Source of the DNA: Parcubacteria group bacterium GW2011_GWA2_50_10b
GTDB lineage: Bacteria; Patescibacteriota; Minisyncoccia; Phycocordibacterales; Zambryskibacteraceae
Direction of reading: 5' to 3'
DNA length: 23,933 bases
Assembly (NCBI GenBank): GCA_001004085.1
Contig: LCQJ01000014.1
Coordinates: 1-23,933, forward strand
Part shown: piece by piece, positions 5,921-23,026 of the stretch
Layout of the letters: each line of letters begins with the position of its first letter
Position numbering within the stretch: position 1 is the first letter of the stretch
Position numbers and translations under genes: made by a program
Notes under the pieces: model-generated
Seen by the model: the letters and a program-made list of their open reading frames with translations, nothing else
The model's database searches: none
Told to the model about the DNA's origin: nothing

Positions 5921-7264
5921 GTGGCATCATTAGAAGAAATACGTTCGGCAAGACTAGCGAAGCTAGAGCTCTTAGAAGGGCTTGGCATTAACCCATATCC
6001 GGCAACTTCACACCGCACTCATAGCAACGCGGAAGTCTCTAAAAATTTCAAAGAAGGGGAGAAGGTGACTCTCGCCGGTCGCGTCATGTCCTTGCGCGCG
6101 CAGGGGAAGATTATTTTCTTCGACTTTGACGACGGCACCGGCCGCTTCCAGGCTCTTTTGAAGAAGGGTGAACCTCTCTCGGCAGAACAATTTGAATTAT
6201 TTGAGAAAGCTTTTGATATTGGTGATTTTGTAGAAATAAAAGGCGCGCTTTTTCTCTCTAAACAAAACGAGAAGACAATATTGGCGCAAGATTTAAGAAT
6301 GCTTTCCAAGTCTCTGCGCCCCTTGCCCGAGAAGTGGCATGGTCTCCAGGATGTGGAAGAAAGGTTCCGCAAGCGTTACCTCGACACCCTCTCTAATCCA
6401 GAGGTCAAAGAGCGTTTTATCACGCGTTCGAAAATCGTTTCTTTGATTAGGCAGTTTTATCTGGACAAAGGTTTCGTAGAGGTCGACCTGCCTAACTTGC
6501 AACCACTTGCGGGGGGAGCCACTGCAGCGCCTTTCAAAACGCACCATAACGCGCTCGACATGGACTTCTATTTGCCTGTGGCCCAGGAACTTTACCTTAA
6601 GGAACTTCTGGCCGGTGGCTTCGAAAAAGTTTTTGAAATCGGCAAGCGGTTTAGGAACGAAGGCGTCGATACCTCACACAATCCGGAGTTTACCATGCTT
6701 GAAAGTAACGAGGCTTATGCTGATGCGGTAAGCCAGAGAGAATTTACCGAAGAACTATTTAAATACGTGGTCAAAAATTTGTTTGGTAAACTGCAATTCC
6801 AACATCAAAGCCAGACTATCGACTTGAAACCGGCTTTTAAGGTAATGAAGTATCCAGATGTTTCTGACGAGGAATATAAAAGGGAAATCCGCCCTAGCCT
6901 CGTACAACCTACTTTTCTCATCGATTATCCGGTTTCGTTCAACCCCTTTGCCAAGAGGAAGGAAGATAATCCGGAACTCATCGACCGCTTCCAGTTGGTT
7001 ATCGCGGGAGTTGAGTTGGTAAATGCTTTCGCGGAGCTAAATAATCCCGTCGACCAGAAAGAACGCTATCTGGAAGAAGATAAGAAAGGGGCGAAAGGGG
7101 AGAAAGAAATCTCACCGTCGGATATGGAATATCTGGAAGCCATGGAATACGGCATGCCGCCGAACGGCGGCATCGGTATCGGCATCGACCGCCTGGTCAT
7201 GCTTCTCACGGACGTTAAAAATATCAAAGAAGTAATCCTCTTTCCCACTTTGAAACCAAAGTAG
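5921..7264 (+). CDS. lysS: Lysyl-tRNA synthetase, class II
   Basis: Attaches lysine to tRNA-Lys. An OB-fold anticodon-binding domain ([21 protein letters not shown]) is followed by the class II core: motif 1 region ERFRKRYLD, motif 2 [20 protein letters not shown] and motif 3 [16 protein letters not shown]. 447 residues, about 50 shorter than typical LysRS. The segment after FKVMK runs straight into [15 protein letters not shown], where relatives carry roughly 30 more residues, so a small in-frame deletion is likely. The start is GTG at 5921, the only start that gives a normal N-terminus ([15 protein letters not shown]). The gene ends just before a strong terminator. Confidence 0.93.
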
Positions 7265-7315: not shown

Positions 7316-7351
7316 TACATATTTAATTCATAATTATTTTTAAATCACATC

Positions 7352-7387
7352 TACATAATAACGCAACGGTCGTGGGCTTATTATGTA
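7352..7387. repeat. Inverted repeat family 3, copy after lysS
   Basis: Arms TACATAATAA and TTATTATGTA around a 16-bp spacer. The consensus with the copy at 15080-15117 is CATCTACATNATAAC - N14-15 - GCTTATNATGTA. The rest of 7316-7460 is AT-rich and holds no gene that I can see. Confidence 0.7.
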
Positions 7388-15071: not shown

Positions 15072-15079
15072 TTTCCCAT

Positions 15080-15117
15080 CTACATTATAACAAAGCCATA
15101 GCTTGCTTATAATGTAG
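15080..15117. repeat. Inverted repeat family 3, copy after rnc
   Basis: Perfect 11-bp arms CTACATTATAA (15080-15090) and TTATAATGTAG (15107-15117), 16 bp apart. Closely matches the copy at 7352-7387 in arms and spacing. Each arm contains a TATAAT-like hexamer facing outward. Confidence 0.75.
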
Positions 15118-15163
15118 AGTAAGATAAGGAAAATTAATCTTTAAATAAGGTGAGATTCGGTAC

Positions 15164-15192
15164 TTGACAGATAGTCTACCAGGGTATATAAT
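15164..15192 (+). promoter_or_regulatory. Consensus promoter of the DGR target gene
   Basis: TTGACA (15164-15169), 17-bp spacer, TATAAT (15187-15192): perfect match and spacing. The predicted 5' leader is about 90 bases and strongly structured. Confidence 0.92.
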
Positions 15193-15288: not shown

Positions 15289-15744
15289 ATGAGCAGTGGC
15301 AATCAGTTCGAACGTCTCTTCAAGCTTTGGGCAACGGTGACGAAACTTGTCATCGACGGCAAGCGCAGCGCGGCGAAAGTCGCGGACACACTCCAGTCAA
15401 TCGTGGACGAGCAGCTGCCCTCCAAACTCTACCTCGCTCCCGGCCAGCAGAACGGCGGCGTGATGGTGGGCTTCGACCTCGAGAAGCATCTCCAGGAGGA
15501 GAAGCTCATCGAGCGGGCCTACACTCTCGAAGACGAACTCGTGAAGAGCTGGCTCGAGAACCCCGCCTCTTACCCGGAGGAGTTCAAGAACAAAGCCATC
15601 TTCCTCTGGAAATCCCAGCGGGCCTCCGGCGACTACCGCGAGGTCGCGTGCCTCTGCTGGCACGGCGGGCGCGTGGTCGTGCACTGGCGCTGGCTCGAGC
15701 GCAGGTGGGACGGCTACCGCCCGGCCCTCCTCGCAAGTTCCTAG
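15289..15744 (+). CDS. Variable protein, target of a diversity-generating retroelement
   Basis: 151 residues. Residues 1-109 are constant: a helical start (FERLFKLWATVTKLVIDGKRSAAKVADTLQSIVD) and then AIFLWKS leading into the variable part. Residues 110-150 are encoded by the variable repeat. Compared with the template, residues 112, 116, 118, 121, 123, 125, 127, 132, 134, 138, 141, 143, 144 and 150 differ, and the invariant scaffold is W, G, V, L and P rich (VVV, W133, W135, W140, PALLA). This layout, with variation at the extreme C-terminus among conserved aromatic residues, fits DGR target proteins, whose variable domains usually have a C-type lectin fold. No signal peptide or membrane segment is seen, so export is not evident. 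Strong promoter, Shine-Dalgarno 6 bp before the ATG and a strong terminator make it a separate unit. The ligand is unknown. Confidence 0.92.
   Translation: MSSGNQFERLFKLWATVTKLVIDGKRSAAKVADTLQSIVDEQLPSKLYLAPGQQNGGVMVGFDLEKHLQEEKLIERAYTLEDELVKSWLENPASYPEEFKNKAIFLWKSQRASGDYREVACLCWHGGRVVVHWRWLERRWDGYRPALLASS
15617..15738 (+). other. DGR variable repeat (VR)
   Basis: 122 bp, collinear with the template repeat at 16101-16222 at a constant offset of 484 bp and without gaps. There are 19 substitutions, every one where the template has A: 11 A-to-G, 6 A-to-C and 2 A-to-T in my alignment; 12 template adenines are unchanged. The invariant GC-rich run CCGGCCCTCCTCGCA (15721-15735) near the 3' end is in the position expected of an IMH (initiation of mutagenic homing) site. 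Confidence 0.95.
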
Positions 15745-15780
15745 ACTCTTTGACCCTTTGGACCCTTGGACACTTTGTCC

Positions 15781-15810
15781 GCCCGGCGTGCTAGCACGCC
15801 GGGCTTTTTT
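15781..15810 (+). terminator. Rho-independent terminator after the DGR target gene
   Basis: A perfect 24-nt palindrome beginning GCCCGGCGTGCT, followed by TTTTTT. Confidence 0.95.
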
Positions 15811-16100
15811 GTATTAAAATCTTAAATGGCGTTAGGTGACATGCCGGCGGCCACGGCTTCCGGCGACCGAAGCCAGTATCCATAAGCTGAGAACGTCTGC
15901 GATTACGGTTTCAGACGGAGGGTTTATGGGGAACTTCACCCTTCGACGGGCTCAGGGTGTCCCGAGCACAGTCGAGGGACAAAAAATGAAGGAACTTGGT
16001 GGGGAGTGCTATCGCATTATGATGCGGAATACGATACAGCCCAGAAGCTTGCTTAAAAACATTCACGCTGGGCAGTGGCACGGACGGCACTCTCTACGTT
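15811..16100 (+). other. Non-coding spacer between DGR target gene and template repeat
   Basis: 290 bp with no convincing gene on either strand and no similarity to reverse transcriptase or to an accessory Avd protein in any frame I read. It contains one palindromic repeat (15939-15978). The end (16045-16100) reads in one frame as KTFTLGSGTDGTLYVNG, which may be a leftover of a coding sequence, but too little remains to name it. A promoter for the template RNA should lie here; I could not place one with confidence. Confidence 0.5.
15939..15978. repeat. REP-like palindrome in the DGR spacer
   Basis: Starts CCCTTCGAC and ends GTCGAGGG with an inner GCTCAGGG / CCCGAGC pairing. This CCCTTCGAC...GGGCTCAGGGTG type of palindrome is scattered in many bacterial genomes. 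Single copy in this window. Confidence 0.6.
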
Positions 16101-16222
16101 AACGGACCTCCGGCGACAACCGCAAGGTCGCGTACCTCTACTGGAACGGCGAACGCGTGGTCGTGAACTGGAACTGGCTCGAGAACAGGTGGAACGGCAA
16201 CAACCCGGCCCTCCTCGCAAAT
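16101..16222 (+). other. DGR template repeat (TR)
   Basis: Non-coding copy of the variable region. Read in the VR frame it encodes N-rich SGDNRKVAYLYW, then VVVNWNWLENRW and NGNNPALLAN. Seven AAC codons sit exactly at the positions that vary in the target, as is typical of DGR templates, because AAC can mutate to 15 amino acids without creating a stop. In the VR frame a TAA stop lies just before it and no start codon is available, so it is not an expressed gene. Homology to the VR stops sharply at both ends. Confidence 0.95.
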
Positions 16223-16232
16223 CTCTTCATTT

Positions 16233-16266
16233 CTCTTCCGGCCATTGTCGGGAGAGTTTTGTTTTT
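16233..16266 (+). terminator. Hairpin and T-run after the template repeat
   Basis: A 10-bp stem CTCTTCCGGC / GTCGGGAGAG (two G-U pairs) with a CATT loop, followed by TTTTGTTTTT. Probably ends the template RNA; it also separates it from smc, which starts 15 bp later. Confidence 0.75.
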
Positions 16267-16280
16267 AATATTCTTCAATC

Positions 16281-18238
16281 ATGTATCTTAAATCTATCGA
16301 GCTTTCGGGGTTCAAAGCATGCGAGGCAAGCGTGGCGAGGACCTCATCTGGAACGGGGCGATGAGCGAGCCGCGCGCCAACCGGGCTTCCGTCAAGGTCA
16401 CTTTCGACAATTCGCGGAAAATTTTCGATATCGATTTCCCCGAAGTTTCCATCGAGCGCGTGGTCCATCGCGACGGGCTGAATGAATATTCCATCAATGG
16501 CAGCCAAGTCCGCCTTAAAGACGTTTTGGAACTCCTGGCGGGCGCTCATATAGGCAGCAGCGGGCATCACATCATCTCGCAGGGCGAGGCCGATAAAATT
16601 GTTTCAGCCAACGCCAAGGAGCGTAAAGCGATGGTCGAAGACGCGCTGGGACTCAAGCTTTATCAATACAAGCGGCTGGAGAGCGAGCGCAAACTCAAGA
16701 AGACCTTCGAGAACATCGCCCAGGTCGAAGCGTTGCGCAAGGAAATCGCTCCGCATCTAAAGTTTTTGCAAAAACAGGTAGAGAAACTCGAGAAAACGGA
16801 AATTTTGCGCGAAGAACTGATAAAGCTCGCGCAGGAATATTTTAAAAATGAAGAAGTTTATATCGCTTCACTTAAATCAGAGCTTAGAGATGAAAGGGAG
16901 CCGTTAGATAAAGCATTAAAAAAACTTTCGAAAGAATCTGATGACGCGAAGAAAATGATTGAGCTCGAGTCCGGCTTAAGCGCAGCCAGAAAGCATAGGG
17001 ACGAGTTGACGAGAGAGCTAGGCAAACTTGAAGGGCTTATTATGGCCGAGGAAAGGGCGATAGAGAATGAACAAAGGCTCGCGGCTTCGGAAGAGACAAA
17101 GACCGTGCGGCTTAAGGAGGTTGAAGATTTGTTTCAAGAAGTAAGCGTTTTCTCCGATATCGGTAAAATTATCGGACGAATCAAACAGTTTATCCAGGAG
17201 AGGAAGCACAACAGGGATTCCAAACTCATTGCCGAAGCACAGGTGAGAATTTCAGAGCTTAAAAAGCGCAAAACCGCCGATGAGACTGCGCTTGCCGCGG
17301 CAAGAGAGAAAGAGAATGAGATTAATGAGGCAGAAAAGGCCATTTTCCGCATTATGTCTGAAGAATCGGAACTTGTTTCGAAATTAAATCTTTTGAAATC
17401 ACGCGAGGAGAGGCTTAATATGGAAGAAACCGAATTTAAGCGCGAGCTCGAAGAAGTTGGACGCCTGGCGGGCCATCAAGCTCTTCACTACAAAGATGTT
17501 ACCGCGGCAAATGAATCGCGAAGTAAGCAGGAAGAGCGCAAACGCGCGCTTGAGAAGGGTAAATTCAGGCTTGAGGACTCCAGTATGGCGGGCTCGGAAG
17601 AGCTGAAAAAAGAGCATGCGGAAACATCGGAACGAGACGCATTTTTATCGCGGGAGCTTCTGGATCTTGAACATTCCGCAGAGTCTCTTAAGGGACTTAT
17701 TAAGGATTTGGAAGCCAGGCTTGCCACGGAGTTTGAGACGGGGCTCGAAAATATCAATAAGGAATTCGATAAATTATTTACAGCCATGTTTGGTGGCGGA
17801 GAGGCGCAGCTTATTTTGACCAAAGAGTCGGCTAAAAAAGAGATTGAAGATGTTGAGGAAGAGATAGGGGAAGAAAAAGTAGAAGAGGGTTTGGAGATTA
17901 AAGTCACCATGCCGAAGAAAAAGATTCGCGGACTGATGATGCTCTCGGGCGGCGAGAGAGCGCTTACTTCCATCGCCCTCATTTTCGCCATCTCGGCCGT
18001 CAATCCGCCGCCCTTCATCATCCTCGACGAGACGGATGCGGCCCTCGACGAATCCAATTCCAAAAAGTACGGCGACCTGGTGGAACGGCTTTCCCAATAC
18101 TCCCAGCTCATTTTGATTACCCACAACCGCGAGACCATGAGCCGCGCCGGCGTCATTTACGGCGTGACTATGGCCTCGAACGGCATTTCCAAACTGCTTT
18201 CCATCTCATTCGATCAAGCGGTCGAAGTGGCGAAGTAA
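16281..18238 (+). pseudogene. smc: SMC-type chromosome segregation ATPase, broken at the N-terminus (Walker A lost)
   Basis: SMC proteins are coiled-coil ATPases that organise the chromosome. MYLKSIELSGFKA at 16281 is a typical SMC start, but after FK the sequence jumps in another frame to MRGKRGEDLIWNG (ORF 16319-18238, 639 codons). About 45 codons holding the Walker A loop (GPNGSGKSN in relatives) are missing. The C-terminal head is complete: signature LSGGERALTS (about residues 542-551 of the long frame), Walker B FIILDETDAALDE, and H-loop LITHNRE. The middle is coiled coil (LESERKLKKTFENI onward) with no recognisable hinge; a shortened, hinge-poor SMC is a recurring CPR form. Without Walker A it cannot bind ATP, so this is a pseudogene or an assembly deletion. 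Confidence 0.85.
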
Positions 18239-18266
18239 AGGTGTCAACCTGGCAGGTTGACACCTT
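18238..18266. repeat. REP palindrome, left copy beside the transposase
   Basis: A 29-nt perfect palindrome, AAGGTGTCAACCTG-G-CAGGTTGACACCTT. It begins on the last base of the smc stop codon. An identical copy is at 18931-18959. Confidence 0.9.
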
Positions 18267-18290
18267 AGCCGTAGATGAGAAAATTAAGTG

Positions 18291-18953
18291 ATGATAGGAG
18301 ATATTGCTCACATTTACAATCGCGGGGTAGATAAAAGAAAGATATTCAATGGTCATAGTGATTATAAGCGTTTTCGCGACAACCTATTTTTATTGAATAA
18401 CTTAGAAGGGAAAATTAGAACCAAGCTTCCGGATATATTTAGCTCGGATGCTAAATTGCCAGAAAGAGATAAGCTGGTTGAGGTATTGAAATGGTCATTG
18501 TTGCCTAATCACTTCCATATACTTCTTTATGAAATGATTGATGGTGGTATTCTTGAATTTACTAAGCGTCTAGGAAATGCCTATACCAAGTATTTCAATT
18601 TGAAAAATAATGGCCGAAGTGGATACTTATTTCAAAACAGCGCCAAGATAGTTCCAATGCAAAGTGAAAGCTATTTTGCCTACATTCCCATTTACATTGA
18701 TCTAAATCCAATTGATTTAATTCCAAAAAGTTCCCATAAAAAACTGGAACTTTTAAAATCTTACGAATGGTCAGGCCTAAAAAATTACTACGGTGAGTGT
18801 CAGGATGACAAAATAGTCAATAAGGAACTTTTTTACAAAGTTTTTGAAACTAACCCGAATAAGTACGAACGGGATTTGAAAGGCTTTCTAGAAAATAGGC
18901 AAAAGTTGGAGACCGAACTTAGGTCAACCAAAGGTGTCAACCTGGCAGGTTGA
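18291..18953 (+). CDS. REP-associated tyrosine transposase (Y1/IS200-like HUH family)
   Basis: Single-strand DNA transposase related to IS200/IS605 TnpA. Support: the N-terminal IAHIYNRGVDKRKIF, the HUH motif LLPNHFHILL (His-Phe-His) and the downstream KRLGNAYTKYFNLKNNGRSG helix with the likely catalytic Tyr. 220 residues from the ATG at 18291; a GTG just upstream is also possible. An ATG at 18275 in another frame (MRKLSDD) resembles the usual family start, so a 1-base slip near the 5' end may exist. The codons are AT-rich compared with smc and rnr, a sign of acquisition. Identical REP palindromes flank it, and the second supplies its last codons (GVNLAG) and the stop. Confidence 0.9.
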   Translation: MIGDIAHIYNRGVDKRKIFNGHSDYKRFRDNLFLLNNLEGKIRTKLPDIFSSDAKLPERDKLVEVLKWSLLPNHFHILLYEMIDGGILEFTKRLGNAYTKYFNLKNNGRSGYLFQNSAKIVPMQSESYFAYIPIYIDLNPIDLIPKSSHKKLELLKSYEWSGLKNYYGECQDDKIVNKELFYKVFETNPNKYERDLKGFLENRQKLETELRSTKGVNLAG

Positions 18954-18959
18954 CACCTT
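18931..18959. repeat. REP palindrome, right copy beside the transposase
   Basis: Identical to 18238-18266. The transposase stop TGA (18951-18953) is inside it. RAYT enzymes are known to act on their own flanking REP sequences. Confidence 0.9.
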
Positions 18960-21501: not shown

Positions 21502-21945
21502 TAGGTAGGAAAGGATTGGATTCCGAGAGTTCGTACTTGGCTTGGCTGATGAAAACCCAAGGAATTTCAGGCACAGCGCGCGCTTCGCGCGAGTGGAGGT
21601 GGAGGTTCGAGCCAAAGATTTTCTGAAGGGGAGGTCGTTCGATTGAGCGGCTTCGGCTAATCCTGAAGCCACCTTTAGCCATTCTCGCATTGGTTCGAGC
21701 CACCTAGCGGCGTCTCGTTCAAGCAATATGTTTGCCCTCCCAAACTTCGCCAGTATAATAGAAGTTCCCATAATAAAAGGGATTCTCCAATATCCATTTT
21801 ATTTGATCTCGCTTTAGCGGTTTGCCGCCGGTGGCATCTGGTCTTCTGATTAACCTGCTCCGAATTCTGAAAGCTGTGCTTCAATAGAAAGCACTTGCTT
21901 ATCTTCGACATCAGTAGATTTTCTAGCGTATAAAAAATATTTCAT
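21502..21945 (-). pseudogene. Serine site-specific recombinase remnant, copy 1, ending at tRNA-Leu
   Basis: Four pieces of a large serine recombinase lie in order on the minus strand but in different frames. An N-terminus MKYFLYARKSTDVEDKQ... starts at 21945. A mid part GLIRRP...GGKPLKRDQIKW is followed by ILENPFYYGNFYYTGEVWEG, the recombinase-domain signature. Next comes LERDAARWLEPMREWLKVAS, and then LQKIFGSNLHLHSREARAV and PEIPWVFISQ, typical of CPR recombinase C-termini. A full enzyme has about 500 codons; roughly 150 remain. The catalytic Ser region (YARKST) is present but followed by a quick stop. The 3' end reaches the CCA end of tRNA-Leu, as for elements integrated at tRNA genes. Family assignment rests on my memory of these motifs. 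Confidence 0.75.
21535..21598. repeat. 64-bp inverted repeat, copy 1 (partner 22930-22993)
   Basis: 60 of 64 bases match the reverse complement of 22930-22993. All four differences are transitions at third codon positions of the recombinase frame (Ala, Pro, Ile, Pro), so both copies evolved as coding sequence. Confidence 0.9.
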
Positions 21946-22893: not shown

Positions 22894-23026
22894 CAGAAAA
22901 TCTTGGCTTTGAATTTTATGAACCTCACACTCCACTCGCGCGAAGCGCGCGCCGTGCCCGAAATCCCCTGGGTTTTCATCAGCCAAGCCAAGTCCGAATT
23001 ATCCGAATTGGGTTTAATCCCATCTA
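22894..23026 (+). pseudogene. Serine recombinase C-terminal remnant, copy 2, ending at tRNA-Ala
   Basis: The frame QKILALNFMNLTLHSREARA then VPEIPWVFISQAKSELSE is the same C-terminal recombinase tail as copy 1 (protein identity near complete over 25 residues). It reads into the antisense of tRNA-Ala (MVDPTGFEPVTSS...). Nothing recognisable of the rest of the enzyme lies upstream in 22780-22890. In both copies the recombinase 3' end meets the 3' end of a tRNA gene. Confidence 0.7.
22930..22993. repeat. 64-bp inverted repeat, copy 2 (partner 21535-21598)
   Basis: Reverse complement of copy 1 at 60 of 64 positions. Together the copies enclose the DUF3800 gene. Confidence 0.9.

Follow-up and report, generated by a model that had tools for sequence, protein, structure and literature searches.

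The window analysed here is a stretch of 23,933 nucleotides from Parcubacteria group bacterium GW2011_GWA2_50_10b. It carries the repeat signature of a diversity-generating retroelement (DGR), and the locus is without a reverse transcriptase (RT) and without Avd. The question raised by this locus is how a gene could be rewritten from its own template where no enzyme is encoded, and which RT, if any, would serve it.

The template and variable repeats

The template repeat (TR) and the variable repeat (VR) are both on the + strand, with the VR 484 bp upstream of the TR (Table 1). The two copies can be aligned over 122 bp without gaps, and their likeness drops beyond the ends of both. There are 19 mismatches in the alignment, and all 19 are located at adenines of the TR (12 changes to G, 5 to C and 2 to T). 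The 91 non-adenine bases are identical, as are 12 of the 31 adenines of the TR. The initial annotation had described a gapless pair that differs at template adenines only, and this description is confirmed by the alignment. It had also put the chance of such a pattern at about 5e-12. The chance is indeed tiny, and that figure is conservative, the exact hypergeometric p value for 19 of 19 differences at the 31 adenines being 1.7e-14. A plain duplication followed by GC drift is ruled out by the lack of any difference at the 91 non-adenine sites.

In the frame of the variable protein (VP), 14 of the 40 codons, and 14 residues, are different between VR and TR. All eight AAC codons of the TR in this frame are altered in the VR, in agreement with the earlier assignment of the template AAC codons to the variable residues. 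The invariant run at the 3′ end, which had also been pointed out before, is the same in the two repeats; it sits where an IMH is expected, and by analogy it is a putative IMH. A search of the assembly with the TR returned the TR itself, the VR and two short matches, one of 17 bp on contig C15 and the other of about 25 bp inside the VP gene. With VP as the query, the only matches in the assembly were VP itself and the TR.

The TR/VR signature, and the fact that the VR forms the 3′ end of the VP gene, support DGR-type diversification at this locus, and not a complete DGR. The first reading of the locus as a DGR is supported as regards the adenine-directed diversification of a C-terminal VR; it does not hold for a complete element, since RT and Avd are missing from the locus.

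Table 1. Features of the cassette in the window
Feature	Position	Strand	Basis
Promoter-like site of VP gene, TTGACA-17-TATAAT	15164..15192	+	12/12 consensus matches; predicted
VP gene, 151 aa	15289..15744	+	ORF
VR, 3′ end of VP gene	15617..15738	+	TR/VR alignment
IMH-like invariant 17-bp run in VR	15720..15736 (TR copy 16204-16220)	+	Alignment; IMH name by analogy
GC-rich hairpin and T run after VP	15781..15804	+	Terminator and/or DNA stem-loop near IMH
Predicted template RNA unit (leader, TR, terminator)	15828..16262	+	5′ end guessed
Conserved leader RNA core (model R1)	15889..16087	+	127.6 bits, E 1.7e-28; among the 10 build sequences of R1
Leader helix 1	15894..15917	+	Covaries; outer six pairs at probability >= 0.99 (single-sequence fold)
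Leader box AAATGAAGG, clamp 5′ strand	15984..15992	+	Duplex strength, fold probability
Leader helix 2 (CGCAT/ATGCG)	16013..16026	+	Covaries; probability 0.79-0.99
Leader helix 3 (16035-16044 with 16068-16077, one A-A mismatch)	16035..16077	+	Pair probability 0.71-1.0
TR	16101..16222	+	TAA in matching frame
TCTTCATTT directly 3′ of TR, clamp 3′ strand	16224..16232	+	56-locus pairing test; here probability >0.97 for 6/9 pairs
Terminator-like hairpin of template RNA	16233..16256	+	Predicted; likeness to sister cassette drops after ~16270

The components of the cassette are arranged in the order promoter-like site, VP gene, GC-rich hairpin, leader, TR and terminator-like hairpin. The span first assigned to the element (15617..16222) contains the leader 5′ of the TR, which had not been described, and omits the clamp partner located just 3′ of the TR. 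A looser promoter pattern has a mean of 0.8 sites in shuffled sequences. The predicted template RNA unit folds better than shuffled sequences (z −2.72, with 2 of 100 shuffles as low).

No family match above the cut-off was found for VP in Pfam, PHROGs or NCBIfam. A search of PDB sequences with the VP profile gave two chance-level rows (E 0.43), and no relatives were confirmed in the collection of named genomes. The predicted fold of VP leans weakly towards a C-type-lectin-like domain. A homologue of VP is found in protein P0003 (154 aa, JGI), the N-terminus of which is like that of the VP in genome G016 (see below), while its C-terminus, including the VR, is identical to that of the window VP. 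P0003 is the product either of recombination between two VP genes or of a chimeric assembly.

Reverse transcriptases elsewhere and a sister cassette

Neither RT nor Avd was found in the window, with Pfam RVT_1 run across the genome and with RT/Avd matching. A search with 54 RT queries, at E 0.01, was likewise negative for the window and for the 18 kb of locus L030. An RT overlooked inside the window is ruled out by the RVT_1 and RT-query searches. Pfam RVT_1 finds two RTs in the genome, on contigs C26 and C30 only. They share about 50% identity, and both are open frames with the G-x3-SQ and Y[AC]DD motifs, the first of which is typical of DGRs. An Avd-like gene adjoins each RT, with Pfam bAvd scores of 44.9 bits for C26 and 39.9 bits for C30 (cut-off 40) and NCBIfam Avd scores of 68 and 49.6 bits, respectively, both below the cut-off of 80. 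The best match of the C26 RT in the PDB is 8ub7 ('Reverse transcriptase', E 8e-46), presumably the RT of the BPP-1 DGR. The two RTs are assigned here to the DGR type by their Avd neighbors, the TR/VR pair of C30 and the G-x3-SQ motif. C30 is a complete DGR with RT, Avd, a TR (5955-6061 of locus L011) and a VR (6298-6404), and all 19 of its mismatches are at adenines. A genome-wide search for an RT, as the initial annotation had suggested, is positive for C26 and C30 and negative for the window. The assembly comprises 31 contigs and has a completeness of 77.65%. The host is presumably a CPR bacterium, which the small genome and the gene content fit.

Contig C26 starts with what appears to be the 3′ part of a TR. 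Its flank, CTCTTCATTTCTC followed by a hairpin, matches the 3′ flank of the TR in the window; the leader of C26 would be located beyond the contig end, and this comparison covers the partial TR and the 3′ flank only. Because of this flank, and because the leader is carried by relatives of the C26 RT and is absent from both of the C30-type loci that were examined, C26 is preferred over C30 as the source of the enzyme. The C30 RT does belong to a complete DGR in the same genome. However, no match to the leader model R1 was found in L011 or in its relative L070, the TR flanks of these loci are different, and the window TR has the 3′ flank of C26, which makes a supply from C30 very unlikely. We propose that the locus is an RT-less DGR cassette, comprising the VP gene and its own TR, and that it is probably diversified in trans by the C26 RT and Avd through the conserved leader 5′ of the TR.

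The cassette is located between rnc and smc. The rnc gene was found in 16 of the 17 genomes of the genus, and in the other 15 smc is located at most about 0.65 kb downstream. A search of the rnc–smc gap with the cassette DNA found no cassette in any of these 15 genomes, which have both genes. In G016, of the same genus, a sister cassette occupies the serS–ftsQ gap, and it likewise lacks RT and Avd. The two cassettes have about 80% identity over 884 bp (window ~15427-16270). The likeness falls off beyond the terminator at one end and inside the N-terminus of VP at the other, and the promoter region and the first codons of VP are unlike. In a tree of the leaders the two are sisters, with a support of 0.894.

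Between the TRs of the two cassettes, 14 of 118 sites are different. At nine of these the window TR does not have an adenine, and there the window VR agrees with its own TR at all nine and with the G016 TR at none. The G016 VR agrees with its own TR at eight of nine sites and with the window TR at one. This comparison has nine sites per genome, only four of them without an adenine in either TR. The TR/VR pair of G016 has 2 of 15 mismatches off adenine. As both cassettes lack an RT, occupy different sites and have sister leaders, the RT was likely lost before the latest rewriting in both of them. The simplest history suggested by these sequences is likely one in which the RT was lost before the split of window and G016 and the rewriting took place after it. 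Rewriting after the split of two RT-less cassettes needs an enzyme from elsewhere.

The serS–ftsQ gap of the host's own genome (on C15, ~4840-5100 of L009, − strand) contains a remnant of a sister cassette with two deletions. There, an apparent VP leader and the IMH end meet at a short CCCGGC common to both, and the TR is gone up to the terminator. In the rnc–smc gap of three other loci, L175 (G013), L179 (G002) and L182 (G015), there are other inserts of 0.3-0.6 kb, each with an apparent short ORF and a terminator hairpin, and this gap is a possible hot spot of insertion.

In the smc gene of the window (16282-18238), about 40 codons, including the Walker A region, are absent after MYLKSIELSGFK, and there is a frame change near 16318. 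The N-terminal smc query aligns fully in 15 other genomes of the genus, and the gap in the window is either a real loss or an assembly error. This gap and the doubly deleted cassette on C15 indicate that there are deletions or errors in this assembly, in favor of a mis-assembly of the fragmented MAG that joined the TR and the VR or dropped the RT. Such an artefact is extremely unlikely, as TR/VR pairs of at least 100 bp without RT and Avd are also present in G016, G056, G127 and G137.

The leader RNA and its predicted clamp to the 3′ flank of the template

No gathering-score match to Rfam was found in 15740-16320 (top sub-threshold score 20.6 bits against 36), and a known Rfam family is thereby ruled out for the leader. 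The model R1 was built from ten leaders located 5′ of TRs, those of the window and G016 and eight beside C26-type RTs. In the alignment of these ten, 13 of the 22 predicted pairs have changes on both sides. Pairing is found in 95.7% of the cells, compared to 80.3% after shuffling and at most 46.9% when slid. One of the five measures, further pair types, is not above the shuffles (61 of 500 as high). A larger alignment of 78 leaders (A4) was fitted to the R1 structure and compared with shuffles that ignore relatedness: 95.0% of 1658 cells are paired (68.7% shuffled), 448 cells are double-changed (122 shuffled), and the covariation is 0.735 (0.224 shuffled, at most 0.160 slid). Here too one of the five measures does not exceed the shuffles, namely the number of doubly changed pairs (18, compared to 16.3). 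For helix 3, covariation is observed in the inner pairs and not in the outer three.

The leader also contains a box, AAATGAAGG, that is complementary to TCTTCATTT just 3′ of the TR. The duplexes of box and flank could be evaluated for 56 of 78 loci. With permutations that ignore the relatedness of the loci, own duplexes have a mean of −5.58 kcal/mol, compared to −3.70 kcal/mol for permuted ones (sd 0.234, 0 of 10000 permutations), and with one locus for each of the 24 distinct boxes the values are −4.16 and −2.64 kcal/mol (0 of 10000). No signal was observed between the box and the interior of the TR (6864 of 10000 for the 56 loci, 1247 of 10000 for the 24 boxes), nor between the box and the sequence upstream of the leader (8327 of 10000). 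Variants of box and flank change jointly, as in GAAGC/GCTTC, GAAGT/ACTTC, AAATCA/TGATTT, AAATAAACA/TGTTTATTT and AAAAGAAA/TTTCTTTT. The clamp is not universal, the longest run being shorter than six pairs in 16 of the 56 loci. In a single-sequence fold of the window RNA, the clamp and all three leader helices are predicted at high probability.

These elements suggest how the cassette could be served in trans. The TR would be transcribed as a free RNA of about 430 nt, and the leader helices would recruit RT-Avd. The clamp would loop the TR out and bring the leader next to the 3′ end of the TR, the expected start of cDNA synthesis, beside the clamp. Error-prone copying at adenines and retrohoming at the putative IMH would then rewrite the upstream VR.

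Distribution of the leader and comparison with known systems

Matches to R1 were found in 57 of 148 genomes in a search of relatives, the host's own included, and in 60 of 379 genomes sampled across the phylum (about one in six). There is no match in G011, despite the DGR-type RT at its locus L073. The leaders examined are 77 of the 81 R1 matches listed, from 54 genomes including this one. A TR/VR pair is present in 66 of the 77 loci, and 1037 of the 1101 mismatches in these 66 pairs are at TR adenines, a biased figure as the finder favors adenine mismatches and keeps pairs with at least 60% of them there. An RT is located 300-1400 nt 3′ of the leader in 55 loci, all 55 of which have Avd as well. 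Another 7 leaders are cut by a contig end. For 15 leaders no RT is present in the downstream sequence, which extends over at least 2 kb. Nine of these 15 have a VR, and seven of the nine are also without Avd (the window, G016, G056, G104, G125, G127 and G137). The TR/VR pair is as short as 57 bp in G104 and 39 bp in G125, and in the G127 pair (L151) 11 of 28 mismatches are off adenine, as would be the case for a decaying one.

Most of the RT-less leaders are located apart from those of the window and G016 in the leader tree, and the RT-less leader of G137 is the sister (0.999) of an RT-bearing leader of G137 itself. With the RT-less leaders scattered in this way, the RT-less state likely arose several times. 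Among the genomes with RT-less or cut leaders, an RVT_1 hit is present in 12 of the 15 checked. There is none in the leader-bearing G056, G104 and G125, and it is therefore possible that some of the cassettes are relics or that the assembly has missed the RT. These three genomes are the main evidence against a general role in trans. At four loci (L127, L131, L136 and L167) the leader is found with no detected VR or RT; these may be decaying elements or an RNA in other use. At L119, L124 and L168 the best VR match is on the opposite strand, about 1.4-2.1 kb from the leader, and not in the usual position.

The same genomes bear on a different explanation, by which the cassette is a former complete DGR that was diversified in cis and later lost RT and Avd, or, in a variant, by which other cells keep the RT at this site. 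It is consistent with the three leader genomes that have no RT hit, with the four RT-less leaders that have upstream sequence but no VR, and with RT fragments in 2 of the 17 RT-less loci searched (L150 and L112). In addition, two disrupted-RT loci of Thiohalocapsa PB-PSB1 are ascribed to earlier or RT-bearing cells in the available text of PMC10907252. For the window, however, the occupation of two different sites by RT-less sister cassettes, in each of which the VR follows its own TR, argues against a fossil, as do the 91 intact non-adenine sites and the lack of any match to the 54 RT queries here and in L030. We regard this explanation as unlikely, and keep to diversification in trans by the C26 enzyme as the preferred reading.

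By extension, such loci may on balance be non-autonomous (satellite) DGRs, in which the target gene and the template RNA move and evolve jointly without the enzyme. They would be licensed by a portable tag, made up of the three-helix 5′ leader and the template-closing helix, that any C26-type RT-Avd in the cell could read. If so, this tag would represent a new family of RNAs and a 5′-sided alternative to the 3′ spacer of BPP-1.

In the DGR survey of Roux et al. 2021 (PMC8144416), clade 2 comprises the DGRs of Patescibacteria/CPR, according to the available text. The cassette resembles these in the adenine signature of TR and VR, the short target without a recognized domain and the small genome of the host, and differs from them in that RT and Avd are missing although it has its own TR. 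The available text of the survey states that remote targets would go undetected, and no mention of a leader RNA was found in it. Remote VPs are described, as far as the available text goes, for Treponema denticola and cyanobacteria (PMC4891356, PMC7517822), where the target is also far from the RT and diversification in trans has been proposed. In those cases, however, the target is remote from a TR linked to the RT, whereas here target and TR lie together and it is the enzyme alone that is at a distance. Thiohalocapsa PB-PSB1 has incomplete DGR loci as well, with trans action discussed in that same text, but there the disrupted-RT loci are ascribed to variants of that very locus, either earlier ones or ones with an RT, and here the RT-less state is common to sister cassettes at different sites.

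The DGR RNA of BPP-1 (PMC12875486), as far as its available text describes it, likewise has a structured RNA beside the TR that serves RT-Avd, and an IMH at the TR 3′ end. The recruiting structure of BPP-1 is the spacer 3′ of the TR. In contrast, the conserved structure is 5′ of the TR here, with a long-range helix to the TR 3′ end. A BPP-1-type structured spacer 3′ of the TR was not found at this locus, where about 10 nt separate the TR from the terminator-like hairpin. In the earlier literature found, to the extent of the text available, it is only the target that is separated from the enzyme, the TR being kept beside it; no report of a family of TR leaders or of an RT-less cassette of TR and target was found in the available text of the open-licence PMC literature.

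If the proposal is correct, a single RT could diversify many genes by way of templates that have their own recognition RNA and borrow the enzyme. This would help explain the spread of targets in very small genomes, and targeted mutagenesis would gain a portable RNA tag. The covarying leader is a testable structure for the choice of template and the start of synthesis by the RT, and its covariance model finds such loci where there is no RT.

The window contains several other repeats. A gene at 18288-18953 is located between two identical 30-nt palindromic sequences (18237-18266 and 18930-18959). It has no Pfam or NCBIfam hit, and from its motif we take it to resemble a REP-associated Y1 transposase. 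A similar palindrome adjoins serS on C15. Another intergenic palindrome, of the type TACATTATAA-N-TTATAATGTA, recurs at 15079-15118 and 7345-7387 of the window and also in L009 and L175. No pair flanking the cassette was seen that would point to its transposition by the Y1-like gene or the TACATTATAA palindromes. Near tRNA genes there is an 89-nt inverted repeat (21520-21608 and 22920-23008) with 88% complementarity. Its 64-bp core has four differences, all at adenines of one copy, which is likely due to chance.
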